A stretch of DNA of 64,000 nt, taken from Lathyrus oleraceus. Its lineage: Eukaryota; Streptophyta; Magnoliopsida; Fabales; Fabaceae. The position numbers were made by a program, and so were the translations under genes. Every line of letters starts with the position of its first letter. Within the stretch, counting starts at the first letter, position 1. The notes under the pieces are model-generated. The model was given only the letters and a program-made list of their open reading frames with translations, made no database searches and was not told the origin of the DNA. Where the stretch lies: assembly GCF_024323335.1 (NCBI RefSeq), contig NC_066585.1:345035846-345099845 (forward strand), written 5' to 3'. Positions 2,755 through 63,284 of the stretch are shown one piece after another.

Positions 2755-3815
2755 ATGGCTTGCTTGATTTGCTGATTTTCTTTACCATGCCAAATAAATG
2801 CCAATTGATATGAATTTTTGCATGATGATTCTTCTGGATGTTAAGTTGGATCATGAATTTTTGTGGAATTTTTAGATCCATTTTTGATTTGTTTGAGATT
2901 TTCTTTGCTGGTTGGCCATGTTTGAACTTTTGAAGAGTGATGAACTTTCATGATTTGTGAAATTCTTATGCTTTATCATATGGGTTTGAAATTTTGCACA
3001 TGTTTTCTAGACACTTTGAAGCTTGTCTTGGATTTGGTTTGGGTCATTTATCATTTGTCATCTCTGTTTTAGGATTGCCTTAAGTTGATGTATCAATTTG
3101 TGCTTCCTTTGAGCTTGTTAATGCTTACCTTGACTTGATGAATTTAATTGACATACTTATTCTTGTCCAAATGCCTGGATTTTTGGGGTGTTGATCATTG
3201 GATGTGTCATGTTTAGCCATGATTTTTCTTGATATTTGTTGAGCCATTTTTGAATTAATATGCCTTTGTTTATTCTGTTGCTTCAATGAGCTTTCAATTT
3301 GCATACCTTGACATGATTGGTTTATGAAATGAAATTGGTTGATGCTATTGACATGAGACCACTTGGATGATGTTCTAATTTGATTAATCTTAATTCTTGT
3401 CAATTTTCATGTTCTGTTTTAAATTGTTTCTCCTTCTTTGACCCTAGGCCTTGTCCTAGCGGTTTGCTTCTCATGTTTGAGATTGTTTTCAGGTTAAGAA
3501 GTGCATGGCTTTAAGGAGATTAATTCACATTGCTTGAGTTGGTTTATTTGATTGATATTGACTAACCTTGACTTGTTTTGTAGGATGCTCTTAGCTCATT
3601 TGAGTTGAGCTTGTGCCTTGCACATTGTAGCCTTGTTTGTTTGATTGTGTATTGTCTGTTGACTATTGGATTATCTGTTTGACTTTTTGAGTTGTATACT
3701 GATTGAGCTGGATTGTTTTCAGGTACATTAGTTGCTTAAGTTCATTTTGAACTTGCTTTTTCTTGGTTGCTTAACCAATTAGGTATACTTTCTCTTCTTC
3801 ATGTAGTCTGGAAGA

Positions 3816-3837
3816 CCTGGCCTGTTATTTGGCCAGG
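3816..3837 (+). other. LTR hairpin, stem CCTGGCC / GGCCAGG
   Basis: A perfect 7-bp stem with an 8-nt loop lies between the conserved flanks TAGTCTGGAAGA and CACCTGTCTGAAG. In the G LTR (46257-46274) the same flanks enclose a shorter stem, CCTGC/GCAGG. Confidence 0.6.
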
Positions 3838-4389
3838 CACCTGTCTGAAGTCCTCCTTAAGAGGCAATGCTTGTGATTGTTTATCTTTGTCCCCAAGTAG
3901 GAAAAGTCCTTTGATAAGGCAATTGGTAGATAAAAGAGATGTGTAGTCCATCTCCTACTATTCAGTGTGTCGTCCCTTTGCTCACATTACATGTTGATGC
4001 ATTGTGGATCTTAACCCAAGATCTATAGAGTCATTCACTTGTGGAGAGAGTTCCAACTTTCTGAACTCCCACACCTTCTATCATTTGAAGCTCTCCCTGA
4101 CCAGGGATAAGAGCAATGAGGCACACCCCTCATATCCTTTCATCTGCTTCACCTTAACTCTCAATGTTAAGGTTAAGAGCACCACTTACCCCACTCCAGT
4201 TGACTTTAAAGTCTAACCCTTGCTTGAGCCTAATTGCTTGTATATAGTGTGTGCTAACTGAATCATTGATTGCTTATTGGTTCATTTGTACATGTTTGCT
4301 TGTTTGCCTTTGTGCATTTATCATCATTAATTGTTCATTATTGCATGATCATCATTTCATATCTTTGTGACACATCTTTGTTTGTCCAT

Positions 4390-22400: not shown

Positions 22401-22931
22401 AAGAAGATTATCCAAAAGATGGTTGTCACATACAAAGATTGGCATGAGATGTTGCCATTTGCTTTGCATGGATATCGTACATCTGTCCGCACTTCAACAG
22501 GGGAAACCCATTTCTCTCTTGTTTATGGCATGGAGGCTGTACTCCCAGTAGAGGTGGAGATCCCATCAATAAGAGTCTTGATGGAAGCCAAGTTGACTAA
22601 TGCTGAATGGGTTCAGAGTCGTTATGACCAGCTAAATTTGATAGAAGAAAAGAGATTGACGGCCATGTGCCATGGTCAATTATATCAACAAAGGATGAAG
22701 AAAGCTTTTGATAAGAAAGTCAAGCCCCATGTGTTCCGAGAAGGTGACCTTGTGCTCAAGAAAGTCTTGTCTTTCGCGCCCGATTCCAGGGGCAAGTGGA
22801 CTCCAAACTATGAAGGTCCATATGTTGTTAAAAGAGCCTTTTCAGGCGGTGCTTTGATACTTACAACTATGGATGGGGAGGATTTCACTCGTCCTGTGAA
22901 TTCAGATGCAGTCAAGAAATACTTCGCCTAA
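19472..22931 (+). pseudogene. pol: Pol of element A (RT, RNase H, second RNase H, integrase), broken
   Basis: In order: an acidic N-terminal linker, reverse transcriptase (VRMCVDYRDLNKAS, FMDGFSGYNQIK, catalytic Y-V-D-D at 20287-20298) and the usual gypsy RNase H (LGQQDETGKKEYASYYLSKK). Next is a second, archaeal-type RNase H (FDGAVN, AEYEA, YGDSALV, DENRMADAL hold the D, E, D, D residues). Integrase follows, with an H-H-C-C finger ending CHKCQIY, catalytic D, D and E in GIDMIG, ITDNGS and NGAVEAANK, and a GPY/F module (YEGPYVV) at the end. No chromodomain is visible. Damage: one-base frameshifts near 19950 and 20710, TAG at 20901 (CAG in F) and TGA at 20997 (TGG in F). The 21003-22931 part, second RNase H plus integrase, is open for 642 codons. 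Confidence 0.93.
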
Positions 22932-23105: not shown

Positions 23106-25714
23106 GCAAAAATTAGGGATTTGGCAAGTAACTGCACCCTGATAAGACTTTGTTCTATAACTGTCATCCGTCAGAGACTCTTGCTCATTTGTCATCAACC
23201 GAAGCGGCAAATGGTCATTATGTTAAATGTAGCCCTTTTCCAATATATATCGCCAATTTCAAATTTGTAAATATCTATGGAGTCTTGCCATTTGCAGACT
23301 ACTATTCCGTCAAATAAATTTGAGCCTTTTATCCAATTATTTGCACTCTTATTTGTTTCTATTCAACAAATGTTTTGCATGTTTTAATTGAGAAAATATC
23401 ATTGTTTTGAATAATCGAATTTTTCATAAATTTGTTTTTAAACAAAATGAACATTCACAATGATATAAGGATACTTAAGAGATCTTCGGTGCTCTCCCAA
23501 GTATGGTATGATCCCCAACAGGGTAAGACATTTATTCATATCCCTGGCAGGCTTGTATTTTTTCTCTTCCTCCGGAGCCTTTTATAGCAGGGTGTTTGGT
23601 AAGATATTCACCACTCTTCCCTTCAGAAGAGTAGCGACCTTCCATCCTCAGCAGATGTGATCTTTTTGGTAAGCACGGTATTTGGCGGTGATCTCAGAAG
23701 CGTCCTGTTTGGTGGTCGATCCCCAGAATTCCTTTTTTTTTCCTCGAATAAATTCCCCAGTAGAGTTGCTTATGCGGTGGATTTTATTTGTGCATTAACT
23801 CTTGTCCCCAGCTGGAATGACTGATGTTCATTCCCCTGCAGAGATCTTTGCTTCTTGGTGTCTCTTGCCCTCATCAGATTGGATACTCTCCGGTGGACCT
23901 GGCTTTCTCTCTTGAGACGTAGTACCAGATGTTTGTGTACTTATCCTTTGGAGCTGTTTGTGTTAGAAATGTCTGTTTGTCAGCATTCATCATGCATAAA
24001 CCATGCATGCGTGCATATATATTTCAAACATTCAGATATTCATGATTGCATTCTTTGCCATATATCTTTGTTTGTTATCCCTGCTAGTGGGTAATATGCT
24101 TCCCAAGCAGATGACGGTGTCTGATCCCTCAATATAGAGTCAGCCCCTTAAGCAGAAAGTGTTTATCTTTCCTTCCATATTCCCCGCCGAGTTATATTCT
24201 CGTGGATGATGGTTATTTCTGTTCCTCCCCAACATATATTGGGATGGATTTCCCTATTGAGTTATATCCTCACTGGGATGAGTTTTGATTCAGCTTGCCT
24301 CTTTAGTTTGATCCTAGATTGGCCTTTTTGTGACTGTTCCCTGCACTTCACTGTGGTATAAATGAATAATTGCTCAGTAATTAGTAATCATTCATCTTAT
24401 CCCCGGCGGAGTCTGTGGTTTTCTACCTTCATACCGGTAGTTGTAAACCTTATTCCATCCCCTTGCAGAGTTAACCTTATTCATCCTAATCGATGACGGT
24501 TACTTTTCCGTGGTTTTTCTACCCAATATCCGGTAGATGTAATCCCCTCCTTGACGATTATCATAATCCAATATTCGGTGTTGATATTCCCTCATTCTTT
24601 TGGATAATTGCTCTGATTAGGAAGTTTATCCCCTAGCAAGTCATCTTTCATTTACCGTTTGCCGGTGATGTTCGTTTCTCCCCTTGAATGGTCATCATTA
24701 TATACCTAGTTTCGGTATCCCGATGCCTTTCTCTCTCGGTCGATTTATCCTTTATTAACCCAGTAACCGGTTGTGGATAATCTTCCATGCGAGTATGTTA
24801 TCTACGTTCTGACGGTAATAGATGATATATCTCATGCACTCTCTGGTTGAAGTCCTCTGCTCTTCCCTAGTGGAGTAAGATTCGTTTCCCTTTTTGGAAT
24901 CGAATGTCCATCCCGTAATCGAGTTTGCTCTTAAGCCCTCTTTTGGATGATGAGTGTCTTGGGAATATTCCCCAATTCACGTTTTGGTTGGTCGCCTATT
25001 ATATGCCCAGTAACCGGCATCCCTGGTGTTCCCTCCTTCTACTCCCTATTATGACTTTTTGTCCCCTGTGGAGTCAGATGTTCCTGAGTTGAAATATACC
25101 TTTTAGGTCTTCCTCAGACGTTTTGGATGATTGATATCTCTCACCCTTTTACCGGTCTTAGATATTCATTCTCCCGGAGCATGTTTTTCCCTCACCCTTA
25201 TACCGGTGGGATCACATGATCTCTTTTTGAGCTTATTACCCAGTAATCGGTAATACCTCATCTGTTTTTTCCTCAACTGAGTCCTTAGTGGACATCCCCA
25301 CCTGAGTCCGGATTTTTATCCCAAGTATCCGTTACGGATAATTTTGCTGTATTGGGATATTCCCCAATACATGCATCTTCGAGTCAGCTCAAGTCCTTCC
25401 ATGGATTTATTTCATGGATTCTCTCCGTGTCTCTCAGCAAGTTTCAAGTCGTGACCTGCTCACGCGTTTTCATCCCTTTACTCCCCGGTAGAGTCTCTGC
25501 CCCATAGAATGAATTATTCATAAGGGATTGTCGATTACCTCCCAATCTTTGCCCTTGTGGACCTATCCCTACAGAGTTTTACTATTTTGCATGCATACAT
25601 CTGCATCATGAGGTCTCTTAGGGACCAAAATTCGTCTCTTTGTTATTATTTAAGCCCATTCTACCCCGTCGAGACGAAGATTTTAACCTTCACTTCTCCG
25701 ACTAGAATGACCTT
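23106..25714 (+). other. 3' non-coding region of element A
   Basis: These are 2.6 kb between the hairpin cluster and the polypurine tract with no credible coding frame. Much of it is built from short phrases such as CCCCAGTAGAGT, CCCCGCCGAGT and CCGGTAG that recur with variation. The second half carries the hairpin array described separately (24423-25370). Long, variable, repeat-rich 3' regions are known for Ogre. Confidence 0.75.
24423..25370 (+). repeat. Array of covarying hairpins in element A 3' region
   Basis: About ten short inverted repeats share a CC-(about 8 nt)-GG core but differ in outer stem bases: CTACC/GGTAG (24423-24440), TCTACC/GGTAGA (24518-24537), ATACC/GGTAT (24702-24718), AACC/GGTT (24757-24772), ATGCC/GGCAT (25003-25020), CACC/GGTG (25193-25208) and TATTACC/GGTAATA (25234-25255). 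Two have outer stems as well: TTATCC/GGATAA (24745-24780) and ATATCT/AGATAT (25134-25165). GTATTGGG/CCCAATAC (25349-25370) closes the set. Confidence 0.7.
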
Positions 25715-25727: not shown

Positions 25728-28700
25728 TGTAAGACCCCAATTTTGACCCTAAGATCCCTCATGACATCATAACATTGCATTTGCATTGCCTCAAGGATCA
25801 TTAGCATCTTGGTTTCCTTTGCCTTTGGGTAGGATCCCTTGTGAGAGGGATGAGATCACCAAGCATGCTTGAATTGTATATCATTGTTTTTCTCATTTTG
25901 TTTACTAACCAAAAGCACAAAAATATGTCACTAACATTTGTTGTTTGTAGCTTGAGCAATCATAAGGTCCAAAGCATCTAGGAGATCTTTTGTGCAATGA
26001 TAAGGTCAAGAGGAGATGAAAGAAAGCATGGTAATGGTTCCCAAAGCTCTCCTCCATCAAATATGCCACTCTAGCATCTCAATTCATCATTTTGATCAAA
26101 GCAAGTCAAAGGGTTTAAGGTTTGTTCCCTAGAGAAACCCTAATTCATCTGTGCACTACAATGCCTTGCTCTTGAAGCAACATCAGCCTATGATCAAATA
26201 AAATAAAGGGAAGTTCTTTAATTCTTCATATCATGCATATTTGAGCTTATTTTAGTGTCCTCAATCATCAATTCATCAAGATATGAGTTGTGGATTTGAG
26301 AAGTTGATCAGTCAATTCATCTGACTATTTTGAAATACACTAAGACCTAACATTTTGTGTGTTGGTCAAATGGAGATGATCCCAAAAGAAACAATGTTCT
26401 TAAGGACAATATGAACAACTTTCATGTTCATAAAAAATTTATTTGAAGCTTGTAAGGTCATCTCCCATTCCAAGACATTATAGGTCATTTTAACTGAAAC
26501 CCTAATTTTGGGTCAACTTCCCAAGGACATAACTCATTCATTTTTTATGATTTTGAGGTGGGATCAAATGAATTGGAAATCTTAAGATGTCTACTTCAAA
26601 TGTTATGTTGAACAAAATTTCAAAATCTCAAAGGAAATACATGTGATAATGCAAGACATTATAGGTCACTTTGGACCAAATGCATTAAAAGGCAAAAATG
26701 TCCAACTTCAAGTGCCCATAACTCTTTCATAAAAAATCCAAATGATGCAAAATTTAAGTCCATTTTGATTCTATTAAATATATCTACAACTTTTATGTTG
26801 GAGGTTTTTTAATTTAAGGCTTGCATCATCAAAATAGAAGGGCTTCAACATTGGCCAAATTTAGAAACTTTGCCTTTTCATGTTTTGCACCTTGCACTTT
26901 AAACTCAAATTTCACCAATTTCCACACTTCAAATGGATTTTTTCCCAACATAACAATTGTTCCTTACATCAAAACCTTTCCAACCATTACTCACATGATC
27001 ATGTTTGGCTTTGGCAAATTGTATTTTCGACGAGGAGAAGCTTTTGGTTCAATTATGCATAACACCTCAAAATTCCATGCACAAGCAATTACCATTTAGA
27101 TTACACGCCCATTTCACTTTGGTATGATTTCAGATTGCATTTGGCATTGATTTTGGGCCTTTTGCATGATCATGCAAGCCCATGCAATGAATGTCAAATT
27201 TCATGCACACGGCTTTGATCACACTCACCTTACCAGTCCCTCTATAAATAGAAGTCTTATTCCATTCAAATTTCATCAATGAATCACCTGAAATGCTGTT
27301 GAACTGAAAACCGAACCTCTCACCAAAGAAGCTATTTCACTTTTCTTCAAATTTTTCAGATCCAAAATTCAACTACATCTGGTTGAATCTTTGGATCTAA
27401 AGCTTTTAAACCTTCATCCTTTAGTCCATTGCACTTCTGTTTTGCAAAAGGAAGCAAGGAAGCAAGCTCAAATCTCCAGAATCCAAGGTTGTTCTTCAAC
27501 TGGTATTTTCTTCGAAACTCATCATCTATTGATCTATTTGCTTGGATTTTGTGTTGGCTGAAGTCCTCTCAATAGAGGCATCATTACTGTGCATTTAATT
27601 TTTAAAATCCATCAAGTTCTCATGAACATCACAGAATTTCCATCTCTGATTTCTCTCAGTATAGAGATCTAGAGTGGAATTGAGTGGTACAGGGATGATG
27701 TACATCATCCTAGCTTTCCAATGATGTATGGATCGTGTATTTTGGTTAAGCTTTTGAAACCTGTAAATTTGGCCGGAATCTTCATGCTCACCGGAGAAGC
27801 TTCCTTTGGAGAAGCTTCTTTTGAAACCTGTAAATTTGACTTTCAATTTCATTTGGTCAATACGCATGGATTGGTACATTTTTATTTCACCTTATGCATT
27901 TTGATCTTTCCATTTCCTTATCCATTCTTCATCTCCTTCTTCTTCTTCTTCTTTCTTTTTGATCAATGAGTTGAAGGTTGATAAGTTAGCATTGATTAGG
28001 GAGACTTAATCTTCCTTGATTCAAATCTAATTCATCTTTATCAATGGATCAAGTGAATGGCTTTGCATTAAGGATAGGTTGTTTTCTAAATCATGCAAAA
28101 GACTTAAACCAATAAAAGATCAATTCTCTTCTTCTTTTTGGCATGGCAAGTTGTTGGAACTTGGTTCACTAATCAAGACTTCTAACTTGTGTTGTTGCCT
28201 ACATTATTATTGACCGGCCTCAGATAGTTGTGACTTCTACATAAGTCCAATTACGATTGCTTAACATAGCGCTAAATTTGCCTTATGGCACATTAACTAC
28301 TAACACTAACCATTAACAATTAACATTTACTTTTTGCACTTTACATTTATGCAATTTACTATTCTTGTACATATTATCCATTTTCTTTTCCCTTTGCTCA
28401 CTTGAGCACATGTTTATGTTAATGCCATTTGCCTTTTGCTCACTTGAGCACATAATTGTGTATATATTATTGTGCTTGTGTTTTGTTTTGATTGTTGTGA
28501 ACCAAATGCAAAGAATTGGACAAAATGGACTTAGATATTAGGACTTTCCCTATGCAAAATGGAGTCAAAGAGCAACTAGGCCTCATGCCTTTAGAGTGCT
28601 ATAAATGTCAAAGAGCAACTAGGCCTCATGCCTTTAGAATGCTTAAAACTTGAAGATAAACATTGAAAGGACCATATTCTAAACTAACTCTTGTCCATTC

Positions 28701-47941: not shown

Positions 47942-48739
47942 TCTATCCGAGAGAAGTTGGCCTATTGCTGGTCCATCTTCCCTAAGCGAGTCAATCCTAG
48001 TGCTCTTTAGGATAGGTTTTGGTTGCTTTTACTGTTTTATTTATTACATTTATGATTATTATGATGTGATTGTATATGTTTGCACATATGTTTGCATCTA
48101 TGTTTGCATGCATCATATTTTCATTGTGCTGGTTGTGTATCTGTGTCTCTGTGGGGTGGGAGTTACAAGAGGTAAAAGGCCCAATACCCAGGCTATGAGT
48201 GAACTTTAGGACACCTAGGAATAGAGTGATTCATGGGAAGCGGGTGGTATGGCGCCACTTAGCGGAACATGGTATCACGAGCAGTTCAGATCCTGATGGG
48301 GTATTATCGTTGCATACATCTGATGTGCATATGATGATATTCTTGAAAGGGTCGTTTATCCTGCGTTTCCCTTTGACCATACCTTGGCCTAGATGACACC
48401 CGTGAGTGGGGAGGGAATGAATCATTTACAGGTACTGTTGGTGACTTGTGTTGTTGGTGACCGTGTTCTGTTGGTGACTTTGGTTCTTGTTGGTGACCTG
48501 GTTCTGAAGTATGGGTTCCAGATGACCTTGGTTTGTGGTTTCCGGTTCCGATGCCGAAGTTCTGATCCTGTGCCTTGTGATACACAGCCAACCAGTCATT
48601 ATTGCATCATTTGCATCATAGCATATTTATTTTCAAAAAGAATAATGCAAAAAAAAAAGATGAAAAAGAGAAAAAAAAAGCTAATTTGCTCATGCATATC
48701 ATTTCTCAGGTTCATTCAGGAGTCTGTCCACTGTGAGAG
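47942..48739 (+). other. Leader of element G with short repeats
   Basis: These are 798 bp without a coding frame of note. A GTTTGCA repeat lies at about 48076-48110, four GTTGGTGAC phrases at about 48437-48501, and an A-rich stretch at about 48640-48680 just before ORF1. Confidence 0.65.
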
Positions 48740-50380
48740 ATGGCAGCCATTCCAGAGTTGAAGAGGAAGACTTGCACCTATAATTTTCACCGCGAGCCGT
48801 TGACATCTTTGGTAGAGTTGAGCAATCTGGTGACCGGCTGTAATCAGAAGGTGTTTGATGATCAGTATGGGGATATTCTGGCACTGTTGAAGATGGTGGT
48901 GGACCCAGTACCATTGCAGATTCTCTTACAGTTCTATGATCAAGAGCTCTGTTGCTTCACTTTTCAGGACTATCAGTTGGCGCCCACTCTTGAAGAGTAT
49001 TCCATCCTCATGAATGTCCCGATCAGATACCAAGTACCTTTTCTAGATGTGCCAGAGGAGGTGGATTTCAGGGTTGTTGCTAAGGCTCTCTATTTGAGTA
49101 TTAAAGAAGTGAGTGATAATTGGAAACCGAGTGGTGATGTTGTGGGTTTGCCTTTGAAGTACTTGGTGAGAATGGCCAAGGAGGAAGCGAAGAAAGGGAA
49201 TTGGGAAGCTTTCAACGCTCAGTTAGCTGTCATGATCTATGGAGTTGTCTTGTTCCCGAGTATGCCTAATTTTGTGGACCTTGCAGCAATCACTATTTTC
49301 ATTGGAGGAAACCCGATTCCTACATTGTTAGCTGACACTTATTATGCTATACACAGTAGGCATGGTAAGGGGGGAGCTATCAGGTGTTGTCTCCCTTTGC
49401 TACTCAGATGGTTCTTGTCCTTTCTACCAACTAGTGGACCTTTTGTGGATACTCGGAACACTCATAAGTGGACTCAGAGGATTATGTCCCTCACATCCTA
49501 TGATATCAAGCGGCAAGCTTACAGGTTCAATGTGCGCAATGTCATTATGAATTATGGAGGGTTTCGTAATGTTCCACTCATAGGAACTAAGGGTTGCATA
49601 AATTACAACCCGGTTCTTTCTCTCCGTCAGTTGGGGTTTGTCATGAATGTAAAGCCACTAGATGCCGAGATAGCTGAGAGTGTGTACTTTGAGAAGCGAA
49701 GTGATCCAGTAAGATTGGAGCAAGTGGGAAAGGCTTGGGAGAATATTGGTGTCAAGGATGGATCCGTTTTAGGGAAGAAGTTTGCAATTGCTATGCCGGC
49801 TTACATTGAGTGGGTCAAGGATAGAGTTGGAACTTTGTTGCTACCATTTGACAGGATGGAACCATTGCAAGAGCAACCGCCTTTGATCCTTTCTGAGAAT
49901 GTGTCTGCTGAGTATTATAAACAAGCCTTAATGGAGAATCGTCGGTTGAAAGAGAAGGAACAAGAGATCCAGATGGAGCTTTACAAAGCCAAAGCTGATA
50001 AGTTGAGTTTGGCTCACAAACTCAAAGGAGTGCAAGGTGAAAGTGCTAGTAGATTGGGAAGCAAAAAAAGGTCCTATGAGAAGATAGAAGATATGTTGGA
50101 TGGAGAACACCGTGAGTGCTTGAGGTTGCAAAGAGCGGAAGCCAATTACCAGAAGAAGATACGAGACTTGGAGAGACAGCTTAAAGACAAAGACATCCAG
50201 TTGAAGAAAGAAGTGGACCTAAGGCATGCAGCAGAGAACCAGTTCAGAGAAGAAGTTGTGGAGCTCAGAGGGCAATTGAAGGAGAAGATCACTCCTTTAC
50301 CGGATTGTGTAGAGTGTGACTGTTTGATTGATCAGTGCCAGTACCTGAAGACTCTAATTCTTGGAGGACGACTTTCTTAG
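48740..50380 (+). CDS. Ogre ORF1 protein of element G, intact, function unknown
   Basis: These are 546 codons with no interruption, from ATG at 48740 (context GAGATGG). Residues about 25-360 form a domain of the plant DUF7745/mobile-domain type: LLQFYDQELCCFTFQDYQ, PTLEEYSILMNVPI, LFPSMPNFVDLAAI and LPLLLRWFLSF are the clearest blocks. Residues about 385-520 are charged heptad-like sequence (ENRRLKEKEQEIQMELYKAK, then LERQLKDKDIQLKKE), a predicted coiled coil. A short Cys-bearing tail follows (CVECDCLIDQC). There is no signal peptide or membrane segment. ORF1 upstream of gag is typical of Ogre; its biochemical role is not known. It is the only full-length intact ORF of its kind here, although gag-pro-pol of the same element is broken. 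It is translated from the genomic or a spliced RNA, so far unproven. Confidence 0.9.
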   Translation: MAAIPELKRKTCTYNFHREPLTSLVELSNLVTGCNQKVFDDQYGDILALLKMVVDPVPLQILLQFYDQELCCFTFQDYQLAPTLEEYSILMNVPIRYQVPFLDVPEEVDFRVVAKALYLSIKEVSDNWKPSGDVVGLPLKYLVRMAKEEAKKGNWEAFNAQLAVMIYGVVLFPSMPNFVDLAAITIFIGGNPIPTLLADTYYAIHSRHGKGGAIRCCLPLLLRWFLSFLPTSGPFVDTRNTHKWTQRIMSLTSYDIKRQAYRFNVRNVIMNYGGFRNVPLIGTKGCINYNPVLSLRQLGFVMNVKPLDAEIAESVYFEKRSDPVRLEQVGKAWENIGVKDGSVLGKKFAIAMPAYIEWVKDRVGTLLLPFDRMEPLQEQPPLILSENVSAEYYKQALMENRRLKEKEQEIQMELYKAKADKLSLAHKLKGVQGESASRLGSKKRSYEKIEDMLDGEHRECLRLQRAEANYQKKIRDLERQLKDKDIQLKKEVDLRHAAENQFREEVVELRGQLKEKITPLPDCVECDCLIDQCQYLKTLILGGRLS

Positions 50381-54355: not shown

Positions 54356-57300
54356 AATTGATCTGGCGGACTCCATTAAAAACAATTTTGTTATGGCTCA
54401 GTATGATTTCGATAATCCCATTTACCAAGCTGAAGAGGAGAGTGAAGAAGATTGTGAACTCCCCAAAGAATTGGTCAGATTATTGAAGCAGGAGGAAAGG
54501 GTCATCCAGCCTCATCAGGAAGAGTTGGAAATCGTTAACCTTGGTACTGAGGACGCCAGGAAAGAGATCAAGATCGGGGCTGCTTTAGAGGAATCTGTCA
54601 AGAGAGGGCTGATTGAAATGCTGAGAGAATATGTGGAGATATTCGCATGGTCGTATCAAGATATGCCTGGTTTGGATACAGATATCGTGGTGCACAGGCT
54701 ACCTCTCAGAGAAGATTGTCCTTCGGTAAAGTAGAAGCTTCGCAGAACTAGTCCTGATATGGCTATTAAGATCAAAGAGGAGGTTCAGAAGTAGTGGGAT
54801 GCGGGTTTTATGGCAGTTACCAGTTATCCCCCTTGGGTGGCCAACATCGTTCCCGTGCCGAAGAAGGATGGTAAAGTCAGGATGTGTGTCGATTACCGAG
54901 ATTTAAACAGAGCCAGTCCAAAAGATGACTTCCCATTACCTCACATTGATGTATTGGTTGATAACACTACTCAATCCTCAGTTTTCTCTTTCATGGATGG
55001 ATTTTCTGGCTATAATCAGATCAAGATGGCGCCAGAAGACATGGAAAAGACGACATTCATTACACCTAGGGGCACGTTCTGCTACAAGGTGATGCCATTT
55101 GGGCTGAAGAACGCCGGTGCTACCTATCAGAGGGCTATGACAACTCTCTTTCATGACATGATGCACAAAAAGATTGAAGTGTACGTGGATGATATGATTA
55201 CGAAGTCTCAGACAGAAGAGGAGCACTTGATAAACTTGCAGAAGTTGTTTGAAAGGTTGAGAAAGTTCAAACTGAGGCTGAATCCAAACAAGTGTACGTT
55301 TGGAGTGAGATCCGGAAAGTTGTTGGGTTTCATTGCCAGTGAGAAAGGAATTGAGGTCGATCCAGTGAAAGTAAAAGCTATTCAAGAAATGCCTGAACCA
55401 AAAACGGAAAAGCAGGTCCGTGGGTTTTTAGGGAGACTGAACTATATTGCGCGGTTCATATCTCACCTAACTGCTACGTGCGAACCGATATTCAAATTGC
55501 TAAGAAAAGATCAAGCAATCAGGTGGAACAATGACTGTCAAAAAGCTTTTGATAAGATAAAAGAATATTTGCAGAAACCTCCAATCCTTATACCTCCAGT
55601 TCCTGGGAGGCCTCTGATAATGTACCTTTCAGTGACTGAGAATTCGATGGGGGGTGTGTTGGGACAGCATGACGAGTCTGGTCGAAAAGAGCATGTAATA
55701 TACTACCTTAGCAAAAAGTTTATCGACTGTGAAACAAGATATTCACTGCTCGAGAAAACTTGTTGTGCTTTGGCATGGGCTGCTCGCCGACTGAGACAGT
55801 ATATGTTGAACCATACTACCTTGTTGATTTCTAAGATGGATCCAGTGAAATACATCTTTGAGAAGCCGACTCTCACCGGACGAGTGGCTCGTTGGCAGAT
55901 GATTTTAACAGAGTATGATATCCAGTATATGTCGCAGAAGGCCATCAAAGGTAGTGTTCTGTCTGATTACCTTGCCTAGCAACCGATCGATGATTATCAG
56001 CCGATGATGTTTGAATTCCCCGATGAAGACATCATGTATTTAAAGATGAAGGATTGTGAAGAGCCTCTTGTTGAGGAAGGACCGGATCCTGATGACAAGT
56101 GGACATTGATGTTTGATGGGGCTGTGAATGTGAATGGAAACGGTGTTGGGGCAGTACTTATCAATCCTAAAGGTGCACACATACCTCTTTCTGCCAGATT
56201 GACTTTTTACGTAACCAACAACGAGGCTGAGTATGAGGCTTATATCATGGGGATTGAAGAAGCCATCGATCTAAGAATCAAAACTCTGGACATCTATGGA
56301 GATTCCGCTCTAGTGATTAACCAAGTCAATGGAGACTGGAATACTCACCAGCCGCATTTGATTCCTTATCGAGATTACACTAGAAGGATCCTGACTTTCT
56401 TCAAGACAGTGAAGTCGTATCATGTACCCCGAGATGAAAATCAGGTGGCTGATGCCTTGGCTACTTTGTCTTCTATGATCAAAGTCCATTGGTGGAATCA
56501 TGTGCCACATGTTGCTGTGAATCGACTCGAGAGGCCTGCGTATGTGTTTGCAGCCGAGTCTGTTGTGGATGAGAAGCCGTGGTACTACGACATTAAGAAT
56601 TTCCTCAAGAGTCAGGAGTATCCTGAGGGAGCGTCAAAGAATGACAAGAAGACCCTGAGAAGGCTAGCCGAAAGCTTTTATTTGAATCAGGATGATGTGT
56701 TGTACAAGAGAAACTTTGACATGGTTCTGCTCAGATGCGTGGATAGACACGAAGCAGACATGTTGATGCAAGAAGTGCACGAGGGTTCTTTCGTTACCCA
56801 TGCTGGTGGTCATGCAATGGCCAAGAAATTGCTGAGAGCAGGTTATTATCGGATGACTATGGAGTCCGATTGTTTCAAATACGCTCGGAAGTGCCATAAA
56901 TGCCAGATCTATGCAGATAAGGTGCATGTACCACCAAGCCCTCTGAATGTTATGAATTCGCCGTGGCCGTTCACGATGTGGGGCATCGATATGATTGGGA
57001 AGATTGAACCTACTGCTTCTAATGGGCATCGCTTCATCCTGGTTGCGATTGATTACTTCAGCAAGTGGGTAGAAGCAGCTTCCTATGCCAATGTTACCAA
57101 GCAAGTGGTTGCCCGATTCATCAAGAAGGAAATTATCTGTCGTTATGGGGTTCCTGAGAGAATCATCACGGATAATGGTTCGAATCTCAATAACAAGATG
57201 ATGAAAGAGCTTTGTAAAGACTTTAAGATTGAACATCACAATTCTTCTCCTTACAGACCAAAGATGAATGGTGTTGTAGAGGCGGCAAACAAGAACATTA

Positions 57301-57830
57301 AGAAGATTGTGCAGAAGATGGTCGTGACGTTCAAGGATTGGCATGAGATGCTGCCTTTCGCTTTGCATGGATACCGTACCTTAGTACGTACGTCGATCGG
57401 GGCAACCCCTTACTCCCTTGTGTATGGTATGGAAGCAGTCCTACCTGTTGAAGTGGAGATTCCTTCTCTGAGAGTCCTGTTGGATGTCAAGCTAGACGAA
57501 GCTGAATGGATTTGGACAAGGTGTAATGAGTTGAGCCTTATCGAAGAGAAGCGGTTAGCAGCTGTGTGCCATGCGCAACTGTATCAGAGAAGGATGAAGA
57601 AGGCCTTTGATCAGAACGTGCGTCCTCGAAGCTATCAGCCAGGTGATTTAGTTTTGAAGAGGATCCTTCCTCCCGGTACAGATAACAGGGGCAAGTGGAC
57701 TCCGAATTATGAAGGTCCATATGTTGTTAAAAAGGTTTTCTCTGGTGGAGCCTTGATGCTAACAACTATGGATGGTGAAGATTTTCCGTCCCCTGTGAAC
57801 TCAGATGTAGTCAAAAGACACTTCGCATAA
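54356..57830 (+). pseudogene. pol: Pol of element G, complete domain set, three stops
   Basis: The whole pol lies in one frame. Domains: acidic linker; reverse transcriptase (VRMCVDYRDLNRASPK, FMDGFSGYNQIK, Y-V-D-D at 55181-55192); gypsy RNase H (LGQHDESGRKEHVIYYLSKK); archaeal-type RNase H (FDGAVN, EAEYEA, YGDSALV, DENQVADAL). Integrase follows with a finger ending CHKCQIY, the catalytic triad in GIDMIG, ITDNGS and NGVVEAANK, and the end module YEGPYVV. Stops: TAG 54732 (CAG in A), TAG 54792 (CAA in F) and TAG 55977 (CAG in H). There is no frameshift. The part from 56004 on is open for 608 codons. A point of note: 45 nt from about 56714 are identical to A at about 21817. Confidence 0.94.
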
Positions 57831-57839
57831 ATTGACCCG

Positions 57840-58028
57840 CTAGACAAAAAGAATAAAAGAGTCCAGGAAAAAAAGGGGCATCCCGGCGAACCGAAAAAAA
57901 AAAAGGTTCGGGCAAAACTTAGGGATAAGGAATGAAAAATATGTACACCCGGTAAGTCGAAAACCTGAAAAGGCGGCTTAGGCAAAAATGGGTATCCCGG
58001 TGGATTGAAAACCTGAAAAGGCGATCCA
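57840..58028 (+). ncRNA. Post-pol hairpin cluster of element G (four hairpins)
   Basis: It starts 10 nt after the pol stop. CTAGAC (57840-57845) pairs with GTCCAG (57861-57866, one mismatch); CGAACC (57887-57892) with GGTTCG (57905-57910); TAAGTCG (57953-57959) with CGGCTTA (57974-57980); TGGATTG (58001-58007) with CGATCCA (58022-58028). The last two contain AAAA, then CCT/AGG capped by GAAA. Units are preceded by CCCGC or CCCGG and followed by GG(C)AAAA and GGG. Compare A, H and K for compensatory changes. Confidence 0.75.
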
Positions 58029-59600
58029 GGCAAAAGAGGGATTAAAGCGAAGACTACAGTCTGAGTTATCTGTACTTCATCACGCTTCGGTGTCTACCAT
58101 CTCGAAGGGTATGACCAGTCCAATCGTTGTTCTCAGAAAGCAAAGAATTTGGGGGAAACTGAGGATCTGTGAGTCATAACAGAATTGGAAAATAGTGGAT
58201 GCCGTGTTCACATTGCCAATAGGATAGTTTATTTCCTTGTTTGGTGCAATTACCTCTTCCTAGGAATTACTTCCTGTTGTATTCGCCTTTATAGGTCCAT
58301 TTTCAATCAATAAAAGTCGTTATTCAGTTAAATTACACTCTTGTTTTTATTTTACTGTTTTGTTTGCAAAAACGTCCGAATTTTTCATAAACATTGCATA
58401 TAAAAACATGACGTCTAGACAATAATGTGCAGAAAGATAAACATTTGAAAATCATTTTGAATGTTGAGTACACTTGGGTGTATTTTGTCCGTACAATCCC
58501 CTGGGGCATGTATGTCTTGTTGTTTTGCAGGTCACTATCTTTTGATTGCTGGCTAAAGCATATGAGCCACAGTTTGTTCAAAGGTGTTTCAACACTGTCC
58601 AGTAGTGTGAGAGGTTGGGTTGTCCAAAGCAAGTTCAGGGTTTGTCTCCCCAGCGAGGCCAAGATCAGTATTGCCTCAGCAGTCAGGCCTGAAGTCGATT
58701 GCAATCCCCAGCAGGGTTGAGGATGTTTTTTCTCACCCAGGTTCGAAGGTTGCTCTTTCCCCAGCAGGTCTGAGGACTGTTAGTTCCCCAGAGAGTCGGA
58801 AGTTTATTATTTCCCCAGCGGAGGTGTCTGTGGGTAGTTTGTTCCTCAGCAGCCCGGTCTGAAGTGCTGAAATCCCCAGTAGGTTTGAGTCTGCAGTTTC
58901 CCCAGCAGGGTTGAGAGTGTTTTTCCCTAGCAAATCTGAAATTGTTATTTCCCTAGTGGAGGTTTGCAGTGTTCGTTTCCCCAGCGGAGTCCCCAAGCGG
59001 ATCGGGTTCAGTAGAGGTCATCCCCAGTGAGGATCATTTGTTCCCTAGCAGTAGTGCTATTCCCCAGCATGATTGAGAGGTTGGTGTTTTCCCAACAGAT
59101 GACTCCCCAGTTGAGTCGGTTTCTCTGCCGTTCCGAGAATGTCAGATCAGCAAGTATCCGCAGCAGGATTGTTGCGTGTCCCCACAGAGTTGGAAGATCG
59201 AATCAGGATTGTGGGCTCGGAAGCGATCGTGTGTTTTCCCAGCAGGAGTTTTCCTCCCTTTGCATTTTGCATGTAGTAATTTTCATTTGCATTTGCATCC
59301 TTAAATCGCGTAGCATCCTCAAATCGCGTAGCATTTCCATTCAATATGGAGCACTGCGCCATAGAACCACTCAAACATATGCATACATGTGTTAAACCAG
59401 TTTGGATCATATCCCCAGCAGAGGCGGATCATTTTTCAACAATATGTATGGCACGTTTGCAGCAGTGGCTTTTGCCAGCATTCAGGATTGACAATCCCCA
59501 TAGAGGTTTATTTCCTCACTCGTCAGTGAAAGGAAAGCTTGATTGACTCCCCAGCTTAGTCCCCGGCAAGTGTTTGCCTTGTTTTGACATATGAAGATGT
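58029..59600 (+). other. 3' non-coding region of element G with CCCCAG repeats
   Basis: There is no credible gene. From about 58640 to 59560 the phrase TCCCCAGCAGxxTTGAG recurs at irregular 30-45 bp steps, some 15-20 times. A conserved block near 58160-58330 is shared with H (about 63600-63790) and ends in TTTTCAATCAATAAAA. Confidence 0.75.
58309..58314 (+). terminator. Candidate internal polyadenylation signal, element G
   Basis: AATAAA lies in the conserved phrase TTTCAATCAATAAAA, also present in H at 63769-63774. It is about 2.1 kb upstream of the 3' LTR. No function has been shown. Confidence 0.35.
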
Positions 59601-59608
59601 CATCCTTG

Positions 59609-60309
59609 TGATACCGGTAAGTGTCATGTCAACACCCGTGTGTGTCCTTTTTTTTGATGTCGGTAAACATCATCTTTCGATGTCGGTAAACATCGAGTCT
59701 CATCCCAGTCATCGGTAAATGTCTGGTCGTCCTTTTTTAATGTCGGTAAACATCATCTTTTGATGTCGGTAAACATCGAGTTTTCCCAGTCATCGGTAAA
59801 TGTCTGGTCATGTATCTATTTGTCGATAAATATCAAAATCACCAGTAGAGTCGTCGATAAACGTCTTGTCTGGTTCCAGTTGTAAATATCTTTTTCTTCC
59901 CCAGTTGGAGCTGCCATCGGTAAATGGCCCCGCTTTCCTTGATGTCAGTGTATATCAAGTCGACTATTCCAAGCCGCCATCGGTAAATGGCCTCGCTTTC
60001 TTCGATATCGGTAAATATCGAATGCCTAGCTTAGTCGTCATCGGTAAATGGCCTCGCTTTCTGTGACATTTGTTCCCCAGCAGCCATCGGTAAATGGTCT
60101 CGCTGACGTTAATATCGGTAAATATCAAGAGTTGTTTTGAAGCCACCATTGGTAAATGGTCTTGCTTCCTTTTAATGTCAAATTCCCAGTTGAAGCCACC
60201 ACCGGTAAATGGTCCCGCTTCCTTTGGATGTTGTTTCCCAGTCGCCATCGGTAAATGGCCTCGCTTTCCTGAGGTATTTTTTATTGTGCAGCCGCCATCG
60301 GTAAATGGC
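59609..60309 (+). repeat. CGGTAA-loop hairpin array in element G 3' region
   Basis: There are about 18 units with the loop CGGTAA flanked by complementary arms that differ between units. Examples: TGATGT/ACATCA (59655-59672), CGATGT/ACATCG (59678-59695), CCAGTCAT/ATGTCTGG with one mismatch (59705-59726 and 59786-59807), GCCAT/ATGGC (59913, 59976, 60244, 60294), TTCGATAT/ATATCGAA (60001-60022), ACCAT/ATGGT (60145-60160) and TGATAC/GTGTCA (59609-59626). Spacing is 30-70 bp. Weak or degenerate units occur near 59821, 59881 and 59941. Confidence 0.85.
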
Positions 60310-60432
60310 CTCGCGTTTCTTTGATTCATCCCCCGCAGAGTGCAAATTCTATGGTTTCTTTGGTATTCAATCCTTGTTTACCTTGAAGGTCTGACAGCCG
60401 TTGCTCTCATCCGTTCAGGTTCCCAGTTGATT

Positions 60433-60445
60433 GAATAGGGGAAGC
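60433..60445 (+). other. Polypurine tract region of element G
   Basis: GAATAGGGGAAGC abuts the LTR start TGTAGCACC and matches the PPT of A in its AATAGGGG core. Confidence 0.8.
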
Positions 60446-60528
60446 TGTAGCACCTCAAATTTGCACTCCCCATTCATGCATTCATTTCATTTTTAGGTCA
60501 TTGGCATTACATTAACATTGCATAGTAC
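60446..60528 (+). mobile_element. First ~83 bp of the 3' LTR of element G, then cut
   Basis: TGTAGCACCTCAAATTTGC is the LTR start of a second Ogre subfamily. After a stretch rich in CATTCATTT and ACATTAACATTGCAT it joins RT coding of element H near 60529 without a gap. Confidence 0.8.
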
Positions 60529-63284
60529 ATTGCTATAAGGTGATGCCATTTGGTCTCAAGAACGCCGGTGCTACTTATCAGAGGGCCATGGTGACTTTGT
60601 TTCATGATATGATTCATCATGAAATCGAATGCTATGTTGATGACATGATAGCAAAGTCCCAAACAGAAGACGGGCATTTGGTGGATCTGGCCAAGTTGTT
60701 TGACCGGTTGAGACAATTCAGACTGAGGTTTAATCCGAATAAGTGCACTTTCGGAGTGCGGTCCGGTAAATTGTTGGGGTTTATAGTAAGCGAAAGAGGA
60801 ATCGAGGTTGATCCGGCTAAAGTAAAAGCAATAAGAGAAATGCCTGAACCGAGAACAGAGAAAGAGGTTTGTGGTTTGTTAGGTAGATTGAACTACATTT
60901 CACGGTTCATATCTCATTTAACAGCCACGTGTGAACCAATATTCAAGTTATTGAGAAAAGATCAAACGGTCAGGTGGAATAATGATTGCCAAGCGGCATT
61001 TGAAAAAATAAAAGAGTATTTGCAGGAGCCTCCGATTCTGATGCCTCCTGTGGAGGGACGACCGTTAATCATGTACTTGACGGTCCTCGAGGGGTCTATG
61101 GGGTGTGTATTGGGGCAGCATGACGAGTCTGGTCGAAAAGAGCATGCCATATACTACCTTAGCAAAAAGTTTACCGACTGTGAAACAAGATATTCACTGC
61201 TCGAGAAAACTTGTTGTGCTTTGGTATGGGTTGCTCGCCGACTGAGGCAGTATATGCTGGTTCATACCACTTTGTTGATTTCCAAGATGGATCCAATCAA
61301 ATATATTTTTGAAAAGCCAACATTGACCGGACGGGTTGCGAGGTGGCAAATGATTTTGACTGAGTACGATATACAATATACTTCTCAGAAAGCAACCAAG
61401 GGGAGTGTATTGTCTGATTACCTCGCCCAGCAACCCATTGAGGATTATCAACCGATGAAGTTTGAATTCCCTGATGAGGACATCATGTTTCTCAAATCGA
61501 AAGATTGCGAGGAACCAATCCCGGAGGAGGGGCCTGACCCTGAATCCGAATGAATTCTGATGTTTGATGGGGCCGTTAACGTGAATGGTAGCGGAGTTGG
61601 TGCTGTTTTGGTTACGCCGAAAGGATCCCACATTCCTTTTGCTGCCCGGCTAACATTTGAGTGCACCAACAACGTGGCTGAATACGAAGCTTGCATATTG
61701 GGTATTGAAGAGGCGATTGATTTGAGTATCAAGAACCTTGTCATATATGGAGATTCAGCTTTGGTTGTGAATCAGGTTAACGGAAAATGGTATACGCATC
61801 AATCTCATTTGATTCCATACCGGGACTATACGAGGAGACTGTTGATGTTCTTCACCAAGGTGAAATTGCATCATGTGCCGAGAGAAGAGAATCCGTTGGC
61901 AGATGCTTTGGCTACTCTGGCTGCCTTGATTAAGGTGCGGTGGTGGAATCAGTTCCCAAGTGTTGAGGTGGGGCGTTTGGATAGACCGACTTATGTGTTT
62001 GCTGTTGACACAGCGCCTGACGATGAGAAGCCGTGGTATTACGATATCAAGCACTATTTGGAAACCCAAGAATATCCTGAGGGAGCATCCAAGAAGGACC
62101 GAAAGACTCTGAGGAGGTTGGCCATGGTGTTCTATCTGAACAAGGATGGGGTTTTGTACAAGCGGAATTTCGATTGGGTCTTGCTCAGATGCGTCGATGA
62201 CAAAGAAGCAAGCCAGTTGATGAGAGAGGTTCACGAGGGGTCGTTCGGTACCCATGCCAGTGGGAATGCAATGGTGAAAAAGTTGTTACGGGCTGGATAT
62301 TATTGGATGACAATGGAGGCCCAATGTTTTAATTTCGTGCGGAAGTGTCATAAGTGCCAGATTTATGTTGACAAGGTGCACGTGCCTCCAAACCCGTTGA
62401 GCTTAATGTCGTCTCCATGGCCGTTTGCTATGTGGGGCATTGATATGATCGGAAAAATTGAGCCTACGGCTTCGAATGGGCACCGGTTCATATTAGTGGC
62501 TATTGATTACTTCACCAAGTGGGTGGAAGCGGCGTCTTATGCAAATGTGACAAAACAGGTTGTTGCCAGATTCCTGAAAAGAGACATCATTTGCAGATAT
62601 GGGGTTCCCGAAAGGATCATTACTGATAATGGTTCTAATCTCAACAACAAGATGATGGAAGAACTGTGCCGGGAGTTCAAGATCGAGCATCAGAATTCTT
62701 CTCCTTATCGTCCAAAGATGAATGGGGCGGTCGAGGCGGCCAATAAGAATATTAAGAAGATTGTGCAGAAGATGGTCGTGACCTATAAGGATTGGCACGA
62801 GATGTTGTCGTTTGCATTGCATGGGTACCGAACCTCGGTGCGTACGTCTATTGGGGCAACGCCTTTCTCGTTGGTATATGGAATGGAAGCCGTGCTACCG
62901 GTTGAGGTTCAAATTCCTTCTTTGAGAGTCCTGATGGACGTAAAATTGCAAGAGGCTGAATGGGTAAGAACTCGGTACGAAGAATTGAGCCTGATTGAGG
63001 AAAAGAGGTTGGCGGCCATCTGTCATGGGCAGTTGTACCAGCAGAGAATGAAGCGCGCTTTTGACCGAAAGGTGCGACCTCGTGTGTATCACGTGGGTGA
63101 TATGGTGCTGAAAAGGATCCTTCCTCCTCAAAACGATCGAAGGGGCAAGTGGACACCACACTATGAAGGTCCATTCGTGGTCAAGAAGGTTTTCTCTGGC
63201 GGAGCCTTGTTGTTGACGACCATGGATGGCGAGTATTTTCCATCCCCTGTGAACGCGGACGCAGTTAAAAAATACTTCGTATAG
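60529..63284 (+). pseudogene. pol: Pol of element H, N-terminally truncated, one stop
   Basis: It begins inside reverse transcriptase at VMPFGLKNAGATYQRAM. The first RT blocks are absent but Y-V-D-D (60633-60644) is kept. Then gypsy RNase H (LGQHDESGRKEHAIYYLSKK), archaeal-type RNase H (FDGAVN, VAEYEA, YGDSALV, LADALATL), integrase (finger ending CHKCQIY; GIDMIG, ITDNGS, NGAVEAANK) and YEGPFVVKK at the end follow. TGA at 61551 stands where G and A have TGG. From 61560 the frame is open for 574 codons to TAG at 63282. It is the same subfamily as G. A 141-nt patch (61116-61256) is about 96% identical to G, while its flanks are near two thirds. Confidence 0.93.

Follow-up and report, generated by a model that had tools for sequence, protein, structure and literature searches.

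A tandem array of hairpins with a near-constant loop as a candidate structural cis-element in the 3′ untranslated region of a pea Ogre retrotransposon

The 3′ untranslated region of an Ogre-like retrotransposon of pea contains a tandem array of 19 short hairpins that display an almost invariant loop on stems which vary and yet remain paired. The array lies in a window of 64,000 nucleotides, the whole stretch of DNA analysed here, and is accompanied by copies elsewhere in the host genome which keep the pairing of the arms. It is probably a single-stranded structure that has been maintained by selection.

Results

Nineteen hairpins with paired arms

Hairpins were collected by a scan for CGGTAA with at most one mismatch (Table 1). 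The 19 retained, where a preliminary description of this DNA had claimed about 18, have their loops on the + strand without exception, 16 being CGGTAA, two CGATAA (59824 and 59855) and one TGGTAA (60150), and TTACCG occurs nowhere inside 59609-60309. Two further matches, CGGCAA at 59564 and CGTTAA at 60107, were not retained, their arms being unpaired.

Table 1. Positions of the hairpins and of the surrounding features in the window
Feature	Position	Strand	Detail
Tandem hairpin array	59609..60309	+	19 hairpins, loop CGGTAA (rarely CGATAA, TGGTAA)
Hairpin upstream of array	59585..59602	+	TGACAT/ATGTCA, other loop ATGAAG
Hairpin 1	59609..59626	+	TGATAC/GTGTCA
Hairpin 2	59655..59672	+	TGATGT/ACATCA
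Hairpin 3	59677..59696	+	TCGATGT/ACATCGA
Hairpin 4	59705..59726	+	CCAGTCAT/ATGTCTGG, T-T mismatch at stem position 4
Hairpin 5	59738..59755	+	TAATGT/ACATCA
Hairpin 6	59760..59779	+	TTGATGT/ACATCGA
Hairpin 7	59786..59807	+	copy of hairpin 4 by duplication
Hairpin 8	59818..59835	+	loop CGATAA, decayed stem (2/5 inner pairs)
Hairpin 9	59849..59866	+	AGTCGT/ACGTCT, loop CGATAA
Hairpin 10	59913..59928	+	GCCAT/ATGGC
Extra hairpin, outside the 19	59939..59958	+	TTGATGT/ATATCAA, loop CAGTGT
Hairpin 11	59976..59991	+	GCCAT/ATGGC
Hairpin 12	60001..60022	+	TTCGATAT/ATATCGAA
Hairpin 13	60037..60052	+	GTCAT/ATGGC
Hairpin 14	60083..60098	+	GCCAT/ATGGT
Hairpin 15	60109..60128	+	TTAATAT/ATATCAA
Hairpin 16	60145..60160	+	ACCAT/ATGGT, loop TGGTAA
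Hairpin 17	60198..60213	+	ACCAC/ATGGT
Hairpin 18	60244..60259	+	GCCAT/ATGGC
Hairpin 19	60294..60309	+	GCCAT/ATGGC
Conserved long stem	60364..60437	+	TATTCAATC (60364-60372) / GATTGAATA (60429-60437), closes at polypurine tract
Polypurine tract	60437..60445	+	AGGGGAAGC
3′ LTR start	60446..60535	+	TGTAGCACCTC..., cut at ~60525-60535
pol of array-carrying element	54795..57830	+	two open stretches, one in-frame stop between
Extra ORF (DUF7745)	48737..50380	+	upstream of weak gag match, presumably same element
Hairpin series, second Ogre family	24423..25255	+	stems NNACC/GGTNN, 7-8 nt loops e.g. CAGTAACC

Of the 95 cells that make up the five inner stem positions, 83 hold Watson–Crick pairs, 4 G-T, 3 A-C and 5 other mismatches, so that the similar frequency of U-G and A-C combinations noted earlier holds in the window copy. 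At least four of the five inner pairs are Watson–Crick in 18 of the 19 hairpins, the exception (two of five) being the one with its loop at 59824. Re-dealing the right arms yielded only 56.7 ± 4.7 paired cells and none of 20,000 trials reached the observed number; the shuffled-arm control suggested in the preliminary description thus comes out in favour of pairing.

Blocks of ~83 and ~63 bp have been tandemly duplicated within the array, and the number of independent stem types is therefore smaller than 19. When each of the 13 distinct 5-nt arm pairs is counted once, 54 of 65 cells are paired as against 36.5 ± 3.8 after re-dealing (0 of 20,000), and with arms of 4 nt, of which nine are distinct, the count is 29 of 36, a value equalled by 2 of 20,000 re-dealings. 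The stems had been described as varied and paired rather than plainly duplicated: the pairing does exceed chance, but duplication has clearly had its share in building the array.

Paired-arm CGGTAA loops are confined to the array in this window, since the five exact CGGTAA found elsewhere on its + strand have at most two of five inner pairs. A count that ignores the loop sequence (perfect stems of at least 5 bp, loops of 4-10) gave 13 hairpins in 59601-60320 compared to 0 to 5 in 20 dinucleotide shuffles, and the tile with the array ranks second of 91 window tiles in hairpin excess (top 18 listed). The largest excess of perfect short hairpins among the 91 tiles is that of tile 3501-4200, with 9 against ~1 in shuffles and with various loops.

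The element carrying the array

According to profile matches, pol contains first reverse transcriptase and RNase H (RVT_1 and RT_RNaseH within 54795-55976) and then a second RNase H and integrase (RVT_3 and rve within 55980-57827). Such an additional RNase H (aRH), located between RNase H and integrase, is shared by Ogre and Retand within the Tat lineage of Ty3/gypsy, as described in the relevant part of PMC6317226. Tandem repeats between pol and the 3′ LTR, another mark of the Tat/Ogre lineage, are likewise present. Judged by these features the element is a member of Tat/Ogre Ty3/gypsy, and we call it Ogre rather than Retand because of its gene order, its extra ORF and its host. The gag match downstream of the DUF7745 ORF scores under the Pfam cut-off.

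The array follows the pol stop (57830) and ends ~130 bases ahead of the polypurine tract and the 3′ LTR. This gene order and the place between pol and 3′ LTR agree with the Ogre 3′ region proposed at the outset as the site of the array. The two arms of the long stem that closes at the polypurine tract pair in nearly all of 30 aligned copies; in 15 of 19 further copies TATTCAATC and GATTGAATA are both exact, 64-65 bases apart. The 3′ LTR itself ends after ~80-90 bases and joins the middle of the reverse transcriptase of another copy (60516 onward); the joint at window 60525-60535 is a deletion or rearrangement.

Copies across the host genome

Ogre elements occupy much of the genome in legumes, and in pea they are estimated to make up 20-33% of it (PMC2206039). 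We searched 3.795 Gb in 1,550 contigs for three CGGTAA with 12-42 bases between neighbours, a pattern that does not ask for paired arms, and used the reversed pattern as control. Overlapping matches numbered 38,517 + 40,636 = 79,153 against 1,654 + 1,763 = 3,417 for the control, and one paired 16-mer, GATGTCGGTAAACATC, occurs 22,466 times while its reversed control occurs once. An 18-mer composed from pieces of the array that are not contiguous there had no matches.

The first 100 of the 79,153 matches correspond to 11 places in the first 8 Mb of C1, nine of which were fetched whole (L067-L075). Left out were a near-copy at C1:2064085 and a chance triple at C1:4364091 whose visible arms are unpaired. 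In these nine loci, ascertained by the loop only, at least four of five inner pairs are Watson–Crick in 197 of 203 exact loops (counting C1:4364091 in would add three misses), all five in 111, and no loop lies on the opposite strand. Together with 40 copies found by similarity, the window's own included, they make up 49 loci with 1,159 exact loops, of which 1,086 have at least four of five inner pairs and 644 all five (L086 was dropped as the same place as L028, and L037-L066 were not counted, being overlapping pieces of the same arrays). Related copies with unpaired arms had been named as the outcome that would speak against the hairpins; the arms are in fact kept paired. Since the loci had been turned beforehand to their majority orientation, the single opposite-strand loop among the 49 loci shows a uniform orientation within arrays.

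A polypurine tract is found downstream of the array in 15 of 19 copies checked. Maps of four arrays from the 49 loci show that different subfamilies have amplified different hairpins, and include stems absent from the window such as AACCAT/ATGGTT, TTGACAT/ATGTCAA beside TTGATAT/ATATCAA, and TGGTGT/ACACCA.

Rfam covariance models gave no match up to E = 1 on either strand of 57800-60600. A scan of IMG/VR for a 16-mer gave six matches, which we take as chance; the pieces concerned contain between 2 and 10 CGGTAA when both strands are counted.

Stems covary between hairpin types

For the analysis of covariation we used 30 stem types, each present in at least five loci and all typed with the loop CGGTAA; pooling CGGTAA and CAGTAA loops gave 31 types in at least five loci, and one chance context was dropped. 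Among their 180 cells 87.2% are paired. Two-sided changes occur at all six stem positions, whereas shuffles have a mean of 3.8 such pairs and only 4 of 500 reach six, and 48 cells are changed on both sides compared to 17.3 ± 5.0 in shuffles. The covariation score of 0.620 was reached by none of 500 shuffles (0.297 ± 0.031) and fell to 0.038-0.211 when the partners were slid; related sequences can exceed shuffles, a caveat that the slid control answers in part. The number of pair types was not above that in shuffles (137 of 500).

Across 1,142 clustered loops from the 49 loci the Watson–Crick fraction at pairs 1 to 6 is 0.98, 0.96, 0.94, 0.72, 0.88 and 0.65. The dip at position 4 is mostly due to the T-T mismatch of the AGTCAT/ATGTCT type (e.g. 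59705-59726), which is represented by at least one hairpin in 49 of 49 loci and is also found in AGTCGT/ACGTCT. This mismatch may be a recognised feature.

Within any one position of the array the picture is different. The stem of a single hairpin is nearly fixed across 30 copies, and RNAalifold on these copies found within-position covariation not favourable (term +0.58), with a kept two-sided change in 3 of 198 predicted pairs. Covariation thus lies between hairpin types and subfamilies and not within one position. The earlier notion of a constant loop on free but paired stems stands as far as the loop is constant and the stems vary while pairing; it does not extend to the individual position, which keeps its own stem. 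Of 25 double changes, eight are two-sided changes within one pair, and seven of these eight are still paired. They trace to few events, one being shared by three loci and another likewise by three.

Common variants avoid stems and loops of intact hairpins

Variants seen once are expected to be mostly mutations that followed insertion, and variants common to several copies to be older. In an alignment of 30 copies of the array the former class is spread alike over spacers, stems and loops when the hairpins are marked on the majority sequence (186 singletons at 541 spacer sites, 74 at 204 stem sites and 40 at 114 loop sites). Variants in two or three rows number 96, 26 and 12 at the same sites, and those in at least four rows 59, 4 and 0 (stem and loop vs spacer, p = 1.1e-7); the site classes thus diverge chiefly among the older variants.

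In a second marking the intact hairpins were taken from one row, which was left out of the counts, every one of the 30 rows serving once in this way. Singletons per site were again similar (0.345 in spacers, 0.326 in stems, 0.371 in loops), and variants in at least four other copies amounted to 0.091 per spacer site, 0.017 per stem site and 0 per loop site. The median Fisher p was 0.008 for stems, 0.0014 for loops and 4e-5 for both, the largest value for both being 0.0015. Demanding intact hairpins in the defining row drops some variable sites, a favourable bias which we judge too small for the fivefold gap. Under a looser definition, in which decayed hairpins and stem positions that do not pair also count, the direction was the same and the effect weak (p 0.059 for stems, 0.022 for loops). 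The evidence that intact hairpins are under constraint is good but not overwhelming, and the scarcity of common variants in their stems and loops argues for selection on structure.

Folding and the acting strand

When pairs were limited to 40 bases apart, none of 100 dinucleotide shuffles folded as well as the array on either strand (z -4.3 sense, -6.3 antisense). In an unrestricted fold of 59580-60330 the sense z was -1.5, with one of 20 shuffles as good, compared to -5.2 and none of 20 for the antisense strand, and 2 of the 19 hairpins had no stable sense fold when folded singly. The folding numbers favour antisense; we nevertheless prefer sense RNA as the acting strand because by its position the array is inside the transcribed part of the element.

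Mismatches had seemed a possible guide to the strand. Single stem changes comprise 45 G-T and 47 A-C, and stem types in at least four loci have 10 G-T cells vs 4 A-C cells. We dropped this approach, since the spacers have the same lean, with 30 C>T against 6 G>A on the sense strand among variants in at least four copies (160 C and 100 G), and a G-T excess is thus no proof of sense RNA. Spacer singletons are less biased (37 C>T vs 23 G>A), and the strand bias therefore sits in the older changes. Pairing of the loops with a downstream TTTACC(T) was also dropped: 9 of 19 further copies lack an exact TTTACCT, one of the nine together with the whole downstream part.

Discussion

A possible multivalent hairpin element for full-length RNA

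The explanation that we consider best overall, and to which we would give an even chance, is that some 20 short tandem hairpins in the 3′ untranslated region constitute a structural cis-element of the Ogre transcript which selection maintained during the active life of the retrotransposon. The acting molecule would be single-stranded, most likely the genomic RNA, and the stem would merely display the loop (U)CGGUAA(A) to a partner reading its sequence. With a stem that only presents the loop, its letters would be free to change as long as pairing is kept. Whether the hairpins are in this way read as RNA by a partner seems to us evenly balanced. Such a partner could be a protein, for instance the Gag nucleocapsid, the ORF1 product or a host RNA-binding protein, and many weak sites might act jointly. 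Slippage or template jumping would make the array grow by adding or removing whole hairpins, and redundancy of the sites would render such gains and losses harmless.

The array might serve to single out the full-length transcript that still contains the intron, either for packaging or for export from the nucleus. According to the portion of PMC6317226 dealing with pea Ogre, splicing occurs in only a subset of transcripts, the intron being located between gag-pro and the reverse transcriptase; unspliced RNA would accordingly need its own handling. The fixed loop on exchangeable stems, a place like that of the export elements of simple retroviruses and partial splicing together point to an RNA element of many hairpins that acts for the full-length RNA. 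Packaging or export would be its most probable purpose, although either of them in particular remains rather doubtful.

Alternative origins and roles

The main rival is a mutational origin without function, in which tandem duplication is combined with quasi-palindrome correction, i.e. template switching during reverse transcription or replication copies changes from one arm to the other. Tandem duplication is plain in the array, illegitimate recombination or abnormal strand transfer has been hypothesised for Ogre 3′ UTR repeats (PMC7004042, in the passages on these repeats), and the eight two-sided changes, seven of them paired and derived from few events, also speak for it. However, it explains neither the constant loop nor the lack, in stems and loops, of the common variants found in spacers, and one-sided G-T types are widespread (AGCCAT/ATGGTC, for example, in 31 of 49 loci), from which it follows that arm correction is inefficient. 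The rank of the array tile in hairpin excess also argues against it, and we regard templated correction without selection as improbable.

Another explanation would be a role at the DNA level during reverse transcription. Hairpins in the minus-strand or plus-strand cDNA close to the polypurine tract could make the polymerase pause, or help in strand transfer or priming; the short distance to the tract, the conserved stem closing there and the better folding of the minus strand are in accordance with this. But pausing should need neither 20 or more copies nor a fixed loop, and this possibility appears to us quite unlikely.

The same folding preference, present in both Ogre families of the window, could mean that an antisense transcript is the functional RNA. 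The nearly constant loop ends C...A would then form a U-G pair and UACC would be shown on a stem one pair longer. Since the widespread wobbles are mostly sense G-T, and thus antisense A-C, a relation confounded by the lean of the spacers, we give this reading little credit.

The loops might also act as decoys for U1 or 5′ splice sites (G|GTAA), with spacers ending in CAG resembling acceptors, and so restrain splicing or polyadenylation. GGTAA is indeed present in 17 of 19 loops (16 CGGTAA and 1 TGGTAA) and several spacers end in CCCAG just upstream. On the other hand, at one position of the array 11 of the 12 hairpins in the cluster have the loop CGATAA, and many loops have no CAG nearby. The splice consensus is moreover mismatched by the C at loop position 1 and by the A that follows, and we consider the idea very unlikely. 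Sites in double-stranded DNA for a dimeric protein, with variable half-sites around a fixed spacer, would fit the dyad symmetry of each unit. The orientation of 1,159 to 1 in majority-turned arrays is unfavourable to them, though duplication alone could yield it, and usual dimer sites have fixed half-sites, the opposite of a constant centre flanked by changing ones; this role is highly improbable. The suggestion in the preliminary description that the hairpins give rise to siRNA can practically be set aside, as a Dicer substrate would require stems longer than the 5-9 bp seen here, even though palindromes in maize Sirevirus LTRs are reportedly tied to small RNAs.

Relation to known systems

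Hypervariable tandem repeats in the Ogre/Tat 3′ UTR are well documented (Macas et al. 2009, as mentioned in Vondrak et al., PMC7004042). They share with the array the lineage, the place between pol and 3′ LTR, the tandem arrangement, the variable sequence and monomer length and the high copy number, and they give rise to satellites (PMC7004042). In the parts of that paper devoted to them they are treated as tandem repeats of unsettled origin, whereas the array consists of hairpins; its main text contains none of the terms 'hairpin', 'palindrom', 'inverted repeat' and 'secondary structure'. The soybean Gmr9/GmOgre minisatellites are similar in that five interleaved repeat families lie between coding region and LTR of an Ogre element, and their possible functions are stated as not known where they are described (PMC3305785). 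This likeness is one of description; 'stem', 'inverted' and 'secondary' are absent from the main text of PMC3305785.

Sireviruses resemble the element in the window by repeated motifs near the 3′ LTR and by an inverted repeat at the polypurine tract comparable to the 60364-60437 stem, and differ from it as Ty1/copia elements in which polypurine tracts are repeated and the LTR contains CGG-CCG boxes, with no array of one loop (PMC2829016, sections on motifs). Their signature AGGGGGAG occurs 0 times in 57831-60445, and the gene order is that of Ty3/gypsy.

Dispersed packaging signals (e.g. RGAG, hepatitis B virus), as far as the sources describe them, have a constant loop motif on several stem-loops at many sites, and a constant loop on varied paired stems is also what the array presents. 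They are, however, scattered along viral genomes and associated with a coat or core protein, while the array is tandem and in one place, and paired-arm CGGTAA occurs in the window only inside it. The constitutive transport element and the Rous sarcoma direct repeats belong to animal retroviruses and have far fewer repeats and other loops. As 3′-ward cis-RNA exporting unspliced retroviral RNA they are alike by position (PMC12789967, in the account given there).

Tandem repeats at this place of Ogre/Tat elements are therefore known, and the structural logic of the array is new as far as we found: no description of constant-loop hairpins with covarying stems in Ogre/Tat 3′ repeats was found in the literature searched, which lay mostly outside subscription journals. 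The repeats have no known function in the literature consulted, as in the soybean case (PMC3305785, where this is touched upon), and the array suggests that a stretch of 'variable repeats' may be a kept structural signal. If these are indeed kept hairpins with a loop that is read, a single RNA pull-down could test why Tat/Ogre elements keep their long tandem-repeat tail, and a candidate signal for packaging or export would become available in plant retrotransposons.

A second Ogre family

A copy of a second Ogre family in the window, with its pol ending near 22931 and its LTR starting with TGTAAGACCCC at 25728, also has hairpins in the corresponding place. The majority sequence of this family, from the window copy and ten of 40 relatives drawn from the more divergent, contains eight hairpins with the loops CAGTAACC (three), CTTATACC (two) and others, on stems such as TCTACC/GGTAGA, TATGCC/GGCAT, TTAACC/GGTT and TATTACC/GGTAATA. 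Contexts of the form CC...GG with at least five of six pairs are 9 of 41 in this series and 33 of 511 elsewhere in the window (p 0.002). Stem variants are shared or single in a ratio of 2 : 20 compared to 83 : 213 in spacers (p 0.077), a sign of weak constraint, and the loops, with 9 shared and 20 single, are no more constrained than spacers (p 0.83). These small numbers suggest that a hairpin series at the 3′ place is a wider Ogre habit, with a less strict loop in the second family.

We tentatively put forward, with reservations, that Ogre elements possess a cis-signal of a class new to retroelements. It would be a multivalent RNA array that presents one loop in tandem at least 20 times on interchangeable stems, with a family-specific loop (CGGUAA; CAGUAACC-like in the second family) that would be read by an element or host protein. 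The 'hypervariable' 3′ repeats could then be selected signals and at the same time a seed of satellite DNA.

The 3′ UTRs of the two families also differ in short motifs resembling CCCCAG(C), which number 25 in the 1,770 bases ahead of the array (57831-59600), 5 in the second family, where the 3′ UTR measures 2,799 bases, and 0 in pol.
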